DNA from: a virus
Direction: 5' to 3' (one strand)
Virus record (IMG/VR): IMGVR_UViG_3300013307_000052
Coordinates: 1-21,530 of that record
Length of the DNA: 21,530 bases
Below the pieces are notes generated by a model, which was given only the letters and a program-made list of their open reading frames with translations, did not search any database and was not told the DNA's origin. Numbering within the stretch: position 1 is the stretch's first letter; each line of letters starts with the position of its first letter. Shown here one piece after another: positions 1 to 9,273 of this stretch. The position numbers and the translations under genes were made by a program.

Positions 1-110
1 AATATAATAACGGAATGAAACTGTAAAGTTTCGGTAGAAACACAGTTTCCTACGAAGGCACCGAGGAAAGCGAGAGCTTTTCGAGAGTGGTTTAGTTCCG
101 TTATTATATT
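1..110 (+). ncRNA. Candidate structured RNA: 15-bp closing stem around three hairpins
   Basis: Bases 1-15 and 96-110 are a perfect 15-bp inverted repeat. Inside are three hairpins in a row: 17-22/27-32 with GTAA loop; 34-41/45-53 with a 3-nt loop and one bulged C; and 59-62/85-89 plus 65-71/76-82 with GAGA loop. The third stem is interrupted by facing GA/GA (63-64 with 83-84), as expected for tandem sheared G-A pairs. Two GNRA tetraloops and the tandem GA appear only when the plus strand is read, which favours a plus-strand RNA. A leftward promoter at 144-172 could instead transcribe the other strand. No hammerhead core, tRNA T-loop or reverse-transcriptase gene is nearby. The class is unknown, and the element may continue left of the window. 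Confidence 0.5.
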
Positions 111-112
111 GT

Positions 113-134
113 GCGTAAGGTGGTGTCCTCACGC
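113..134. other. Hairpin next to the structured element
   Basis: GCGT (113-116) pairs with ACGC (131-134) and AGG (118-120) with CCT (127-129) around a 6-nt loop. It would be at the 5' end of any RNA started from the leftward promoter at 144-172. Confidence 0.45.
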
Positions 135-143
135 CCAATAACT

Positions 144-172
144 ATTATTGCTCAAATAGTTTCGCTGCGCAA
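144..172 (-). promoter_or_regulatory. Leftward sigma-70-like promoter
   Basis: Read on the minus strand: TTGCGC (167-172), 17-bp spacer, AATAAT (144-149). Transcription would begin near 137 and run through the 113-134 hairpin into the 1-110 element. Both boxes depart from consensus, so this is tentative. Confidence 0.35.
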
Positions 173-219
173 TCATTCTTTCCCGAGATATTACCGCTTC
201 GCAATTGTTCTTCCCGAAA
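161..219. repeat. Two tandem copies of a ~27-bp unit ending in TTCCCGA
   Basis: Copy A (162-188) and copy B (194-219) share the order CGCTKCGCAAT-N-T-TTC-TTCCCGA. The spacing is about 32 bp. A third TTTCCCGAA lies at 322-330 without the rest of the unit. Possible protein-binding repeats. Confidence 0.45.
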
Positions 220-732
220 TGATGATAATAACCTACGGTATAATTTCCTTATGAAACATTAATAACATAAAACATTTTAGTATGTTTATTGGTTGTTAGT
301 GTATTGTCAATTAGTGTAATCTTTCCCGAAAGTGATTGTTACTTAGATAATAGTTAGAATGCACATAGTAACTTGTGGTTATTATTACTTAGTTATCAAT
401 AACATATGTTAGCGTTTGTGTGTTGATTGTTTCCTTTGTTTACTATTGCACTTTCATAGATACAGGTTGTTTAGTGTGTTAATTGAGAGCTATTCTCGTT
501 TATTCACTGTATTGAATAACCATTCATTAAGATGCGTTAAAGTGTGTTAGTGGGTTGAATAACTGCATAATTGCCAATTGTTCACCTTCTCAGGTTGTCT
601 GTAAGCCATTCTAAGAGGCTTTTACTGTTAGCTGTGTGTTGGTATAGATTGAGAGAGATTCACCGTTTAAGCAGTTTTTGCATAAATCGACAGTGCGCGT
701 TATTGATAGGCAAAATCTATTGGAAACTTGCA
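220..732. other. Gene-free AT-rich stretch
   Basis: There are many stop codons in all frames and no start preceded by a plausible ribosome site. The only open frame of note (plus strand, 571-831) lacks an SD site and runs across a terminator into the gene on the other strand. A good minus-strand -35 (TTGACA, 305-310) is paired only with a poor -10 (282-287). Recurrent TTAGTGT and TTATTATTAC-like words are present. Nothing else can be assigned. Confidence 0.6.
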
Positions 733-760
733 GACAAAATAAAAGGGCTTTTCAGCCCTT
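733..760 (-). terminator. Intrinsic terminator after the 778-1179 gene
   Basis: GGGCT (745-749) and AGCCC (754-758) form the stem. On the minus strand it is followed by TTTT-A-TTTT (complement of 736-744). It ends the long minus-strand gene block. Confidence 0.8.
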
Positions 761-777
761 GTTTTGTTGTTCCTTGC

Positions 778-3970: not shown

Positions 3971-4093
3971 TAACCAGTTTTAAGATCCACTATTGTTTTG
4001 TAAAGATTGTGGAACTATTCTCATTACCAGAATAACAGGTATCTCCAGTGTGTTTCCTCCGGTGTCCATCGTTGCCGCTGTAAGTAAGATAAC
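3971..4093. other. Short gene-free interval
   Basis: A 29-codon minus-strand frame (MDTGGNTLEI...) ends at 3980 but has no ribosome site ahead of it. GGAGG and GGAG words inside are not followed by usable starts. No convincing gene or promoter. Confidence 0.4.
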
Positions 4094-9043: not shown

Positions 9044-9199
9044 TTATTTTGAAACTTTTACTACTTTCCAACCTTTGCAGCCTGTAAACACTTCCTTATA
9101 CTCTCGCTTTGCTTCTTGGGCGTCAGCATATGGTAAACGCCAATCTGGTTTAAAGATAGAACCGTCAGCCTGCGTACATTGGATAGTGTATTTGTTCAT
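9044..9199 (-). CDS. Small hypothetical protein, 51 aa
   Basis: Starts MNKYTIQCTQADGSIFKPDW and ends WKVVKVSK. A strand-helix-strand layout (helix about 25-38, AQEAKREYKEVF) as in single-domain RNA-binding or inhibitor folds, but no family is recognised. AGAGAAGAAA precedes the ATG. Monocistronic with its own hairpin leader. Confidence 0.75.
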   Translation of the reverse strand: MNKYTIQCTQADGSIFKPDWRLPYADAQEAKREYKEVFTGCKGWKVVKVSK

Positions 9200-9273
9200 T
9201 TTCTTCTCTCTATCGGCGGGAGCCATTCCCGCCCTGTGATAAGTAGTATCGTTTATTTTGAATCTTACGTCAA
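9200..9273 (-). promoter_or_regulatory. Promoter and stem-loop leader of the 51-aa gene
   Basis: On the minus strand: TTGACG (9268-9273), 17-bp spacer, GATACT (9245-9250). Leader hairpin GGCGGG-AATGGCT-CCCGCC (9215-9233). Confidence 0.8.

Follow-up and report, generated by a model that had tools for sequence, protein, structure and literature searches.

How the direct terminal repeat (DTR) of a phage genome is duplicated from a single copy is a long-standing question, studied mainly in T7 and T3. In T7 a concatemer hairpin, or palindrome, reportedly lies next to the terminal repeat, in work by Chung, Nardone and Hinkle from 1990. The pRNA of phi29 is an RNA of about 110-170 nt with a closing helix and hairpins, and is encoded near the genome end. 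Phage N4 carries terminal hairpins and inverted repeats at its DTR genome end, which may act in DNA synthesis (PMC3896407). A further small noncoding element, pseudo-ToxI with its 36-nt tandem repeat, is known from phage phiTE (PMC3475682). Here we describe a folded element at the start of a viral contig, which is probably an undescribed signal, or small RNA, for making or packaging repeated genome ends.

The window is the whole stretch analysed, 21,530 nucleotides of IMG/VR virus record IMGVR_UViG_3300013307_000052. Positions 1-112 form a branched self-pairing structure on the + strand (Table 1), closed by two arms of 15 nt each that are perfectly complementary. The initial annotation had noted this 15-bp terminal stem and judged such a density of structure hard to get by chance. 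We calculated a minimum free energy (MFE) of -43.2 kcal/mol for positions 1-110, compared with -19.1 +/- 3.2 in dinucleotide shuffles (z -7.44), and 0 of 200 shuffles folded as well. The element is also the only perfect inverted repeat of at least 15 bp, with a span of 60-320, in the whole window. Two close relatives, L002 and L003, were found through the gene next to the element and carry it whole in mid-contig. Their closing stem is 17 bp long (ACAATATAATAACGGAA/TTCCGTTATTATATTGT), so the stem noted earlier is real but cut by the contig end; the window begins 2 bp inside it and its 3' arm is 96-112. Fold-back chimeras occur at contig ends and the window does start inside a stem, but L002, L003 and finished isolate genomes all carry this element internally, and compensatory changes are found among them. 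The independent contigs exclude an assembly fold-back and the relatives refute a chance palindrome, leaving such explanations with practically no probability. The L042 stretch also ends inside its equivalent element (9194-9212), and strong hairpins or doubled terminal coverage may cause assemblies to break here.

Between the arms, the single-sequence MFE joins hairpins A and B as a single nested helix. This helix is impossible in L003, where both local hairpins survive, and the three adjacent hairpins drawn in the initial annotation are therefore the better model. The GA/GA internal loop described there is present in hairpin C (G63A64/G83A84) and largely conserved in relatives; in L003 the tandem GA and G66-U81 are unchanged despite the substitution at G65-C82. 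The window likewise has the two GNRA tetraloops, GAGA (72-75) and GTAA (23-26), but such loops are not shared by the family, and GTAA is ATAA in L002 and L003. A hairpin abutting the closing stem on the same side as P0 was also observed in LTH01, Hena1, CR8 and phAPEC8, and in several genera this hairpin shows G-A pairs on the opposite strand. Elsewhere in the window, a repeated ATTGCTTCCCGA / TTTCCCGA motif occurs at 175-186, 872-883 and 1211-1222, and L002 and L003 also carry it often, in noncoding stretches and at the ends of genes. A short motif at 599-635 (CTGTAAGCCATTCTAAGAGGCTTTT) resembles intergenic sequence of Erwinia phage Hena1 and Vibrio phage 1.193.O.

Table 1. Parts of the element and its surroundings in the window.
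Feature	Position	Strand	Evidence and changes in relatives
P1 5' arm, closing stem	1..15	+	Complement of 96-110; truncated by contig start (2 more bp in relatives); homologous stems covary in other genera
Hairpin A, GAAACT-GTAA-AGTTTC	17..32	+	T22-A27 to G-C in L002/L003; loop GTAA to ATAA
Hairpin B, GTA GAAAC-ACA-GTTTC (C bulge) TAC	34..53	+	GAAAC/GTTTC to GGAAC/GTTCC in L003, by direct reading
Hairpin C, CACC, tandem GA/GA (63-64 with 83-84), GGAAAGC, loop GAGA 72-75, GCTTTTC, G85, GTG 87-89	59..89	+	G65-C82 to A-U in L003
P1 3' arm, closing stem	96..112	+	17-bp stem of L002/L003; complementarity
P0 hairpin, GCGTAAGG-TGGTGT-CCTCACGC, abuts closing stem	113..134		L003 keeps the stem, loop differs
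Long noncoding region with the element	1..777		First gene-like ORF at 778; synteny with isolate phages

In agreement with the initial annotation, no gene accounts for the element, and it is not a known Rfam RNA. No ORF of at least 60 aa overlaps it, and ARAGORN found no tRNA or tmRNA in the window. Searching the window and the loci of five relatives against Rfam 15 (including pRNA, hammerhead, 6S and tmRNA) gave 0 matches at the gathering threshold, and a relaxed threshold, with E up to 5, gave none at 1-110. As a check for retron msr-msd we scanned ten window proteins, among which no reverse transcriptase was recognised. A limited literature search, with most subscription journals outside its scope, returned no description or transcriptome of the element.

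The source of the window is distantly related to the Vequintavirinae: its ATPase shares about 50% identity with the ATPases of Vequintavirinae-type phages, and positions 4017-4079 are 92% identical to Seunavirus GAP31. A DNA comparison of the element itself gave no isolate phage among the matches listed, and the elements of isolate phages were located through the neighbouring gene and synteny. We observed the element in most of the Vequintavirinae and Stephanstirmvirinae examined (relatives of rV5 and phAPEC8), at the same place, in the long noncoding gap that follows the last early gene. A perfect closing stem of 15-22 bp encloses branched hairpins, and the total length is 103-248 nt. The carriers are Seunavirus (4MG, GAP31, PVP-SE1), Mydovirus (KpS8, Ro1, KB57, KPP-1), Henunavirus (Hena1, SNUABM_01, SNUABM_55), Avunavirus (Av-05) and TH18, Serratia phage ChuuTotoro, LTH01 and A5-4, Certrevirus (CR8, CR3, DU_PP_IV, phiTE) and SSBI34, and among the Stephanstirmvirinae phAPEC8_ev052, phiWec181, phi92 and phi1_175008. 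Vequintavirus FV3 has the gap with no comparable stem, so the element is not essential to all relatives. Some records named as Campylobacter phages (for example MG065639 and MG065655) contain sequences of these enterobacterial phages, and the host label may be wrong.

Across 308 kb of related sequence, perfect repeats of the element's size are confined to this gap, with one element per genome; in addition, Av-05, TH18 and PVP-SE1 have further copies of the arm, and phiTE has one more repeat. By comparison, 668 kb of unrelated viral contigs contained six perfect repeats of such size. Pattern matches in L005 and L006 lay in unrelated sequence and were rejected as relatives, and the pattern GCTAATAATAAGCC proved too loose, and its loci were used solely as a control for how often long inverted repeats occur. 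The gene adjoining the element, on the - strand at 778-1179 (phrog_10173), is common to giant RaK2/121Q/Munch-like phages, and in fENko-Kae01 it sits within a 19.7-kb terminal repeat. Although the giant RaK2/121Q-like phages share this gene, the stretches of them that were read contain no perfect repeat of at least 15 bp.

For covariation we aligned ten Seuna-, Mydo- and Henunavirus elements (alignment A1; 48 pairs in four helices). Taken together, the element groups are too different in length and sequence for a common alignment. The 48 pairs are 99.6% paired and 18 of them change on both sides, compared with a mean of 9.2 in shuffles, none of 500 of which had as many. The covariation score was 0.304 versus 0.109. 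Sliding the partners abolished the covariation, a control biased towards this structure because the structure was partly derived from the same sequences. In P1, 12 of 20 pairs change on both sides, with a single G-U; five pairs covary in the tandem-GA hairpin, and helix B is invariant. The window group (the window, L002 and L003) has double changes in hairpins A, B and C. Compensatory change in relatives, which the initial annotation had proposed as a test, is thus present, and indicates a conserved structure under selection, formed by either RNA or single-stranded DNA.

The position of the element was compared with mapped or annotated DTRs in three genera of two subfamilies, namely in Hena1, phi92 and KPP-1. 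The repeats are 519 bp in Hena1, 343 bp in phi92 and, by PhageTerm, 514 bp in KPP-1 (PMC9862379). From the end of the element to the start of the DTR we measured 260 bp in Hena1, 251 bp in phi92 and 308 bp in KPP-1. The Hena1 and KPP-1 repeats are alike at their start (AACAC..TTCT) and end (TGTCCGTC), and in GAP31, 4MG, PVP-SE1 and phAPEC8 the element is likewise followed by DTR-like sequence. By synteny, the noncoding region at the start of the window appears equivalent to the terminus region of the Vequintavirinae. No DTR was recognised near the element in L002 or L003, and a genome end at this location in the window phage is therefore a prediction. PhiTE is described as circularly permuted (PMC3475682), which speaks against a fixed DTR end in that phage. 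Inside the DTR-like region we also observed a box of about 30 bp (GTGCGTATAAnnTGTnTTATGTTAAAT; for example L015 7838-7866 and L034 8618-8652) that is 86-97% identical across genera and found in KPP-1, Hena1, LTH01, A5-4, CR8, phiTE, Av-05, TH18, ChuuTotoro and FV3. It may be a shared early promoter or packaging site.

Third copies of the P1 arm are located at L024 2520-2598 (Av-05), L025 2520-2599 (TH18) and L019 2538-2852 (PVP-SE1), which suggests that the arm is a binding site or repeat unit in its own right. Replication origins and initiation sites typically have branched hairpins, and the element could be such a single-strand initiation structure, used for helicase or primase loading or bound by an initiator at the two P1 arms, and lie near the ends by chance. 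The noncoding, AT-rich surroundings are consistent with an origin, as is the resemblance of the extra arm copies to repeated binding sites. However, an origin does not predict a consistent distance from the DTR, and neither an initiator gene nor an iteron array was seen; we consider this explanation quite improbable.

We favour the window + strand, the one folded in the initial annotation, as the strand that folds, on the basis of wobble pairs and the tandem G-A loop. Hairpin C retains its GA/GA loop throughout the window group and the ten A1 sequences, and in three of the four Stephanstirmvirinae. Where only one side of a pair changes in the clean helices, the outcome on this strand is G-U, not A-C; counting every helix gives a suggestive 33 to 20, which is not significant alone (two-sided binomial ~0.1) and takes in a variable central part of the Seuna group that is poorly aligned. 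The + strand MFE also has more G-U pairs. The + strand equivalent folds better by energy in 19 of 19 relatives; the z-scores of the two strands are similar, however, which puts most of this energy edge down to composition, and we did not use fold energy as evidence of strand.

A branched, covarying structure, a GA/GA hairpin kept on the + strand in two subfamilies and the excess of G-U over A-C would all be expected of a noncoding RNA that acts in trans, is about 110-270 nt long and is transcribed from the + strand, perhaps with a role in packaging like phi29 pRNA, in regulation or in anti-defence. Several observations stand against it. A scan of both strands found no sigma-70 promoter whose position is constant, and on reading neither strand has the T run after the element that an intrinsic terminator would require. 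The closing stems of 15-22 bp almost never contain a G-U, the size varies more than twofold between phages, and the z-scores do not separate the strands. We regard such an RNA as possible but somewhat doubtful. That it forms a new class of phage noncoding RNA beside the terminal repeat, found in most Vequintavirinae and Stephanstirmvirinae and acting in packaging or end formation, is a narrower proposal and an unlikely one, although not negligible. Should it prove to be RNA, the element would represent a phage RNA family that is widespread and so far undescribed.

Of the double changes that separate sister P1 arms, 10 are of transversion type and 5 of transition type, an excess that fits arm-to-arm templated correction of a DNA hairpin. 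Sheared tandem G-A pairs are stable in DNA and RNA alike, so a folded DNA strand of + polarity would fit both this and the strand-specific features. Three features favour a role as DNA in genome-end formation: closing stems that are almost perfect, the absence of a conserved promoter, and the location. The undescribed structured RNA of the initial annotation stands as a real structure outside any Rfam family; its RNA nature was not established, as both strands fold, no promoter is fixed, the stems are almost free of G-U and the element lies by terminal repeats.

We prefer to view the element as a conserved folded nucleic acid that serves as a terminus-adjacent processing signal in the Vequintavirinae and Stephanstirmvirinae, ahead of a noncoding RNA, an origin or an artefact, while placing this interpretation a little below an even chance. 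During replication a concatemer junction would carry one DTR copy. The + strand equivalent, displaced or extended through the region, could then adopt the branched fold closed by P1, at about 250-310 nt from the boundary of the DTR; in a T7-like scheme, a strand displaced leftwards through the repeat would have + polarity. The fold may act as a turn-around or recognition point for the replication and terminase machinery, possibly by contact with polymerase or terminase, which would duplicate the DTR and cut the mature end, like the hairpins in the T7 concatemer model. This role is supported by the consistent place 251-308 bp from the DTR in three genera and by the DTR-like sequence after the element in four further phages, and also by perfect stems of differing sequence with transversion-type double changes, one repeat per genome, and two well-folding strands with no fixed sigma-70 promoter. 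It is weakened by the strand-specific tandem G-A and wobble pairs, which are as expected of RNA, by L002 and L003, where no DTR was recognised, by FV3, which lacks the stem, and by the reported circular permutation of phiTE. Because phi92, phAPEC8 and their relatives are common E. coli phages that grow easily, the role of the strongly conserved structure tied to their DTR boundary is directly testable.

Hairpins near terminal repeats are already known from T7 and N4, whereas the element itself has no Rfam family or description that we found. Although phiTE has both pseudo-ToxI and the present element, their loci differ (106.7 kb versus 49.3 kb) and pseudo-ToxI has no closing stem. The N4 repeats are at the very ends of the genome, whereas the present element lies 250-310 bp inside unique sequence. 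It resembles phi29 pRNA in size, in its closing helix and hairpins and in its genome-end location, but has no Rfam match and belongs to a different phage group with different packaging machinery. Compared with T7, the element is much larger, branched and strongly covarying, and occurs in myoviruses of 140-150 kb. As in T7, however, a self-pairing sequence is located just outside a short direct terminal repeat, and in phi92, Hena1 and KPP-1 this palindrome lies near the DTR boundary on the unique side.
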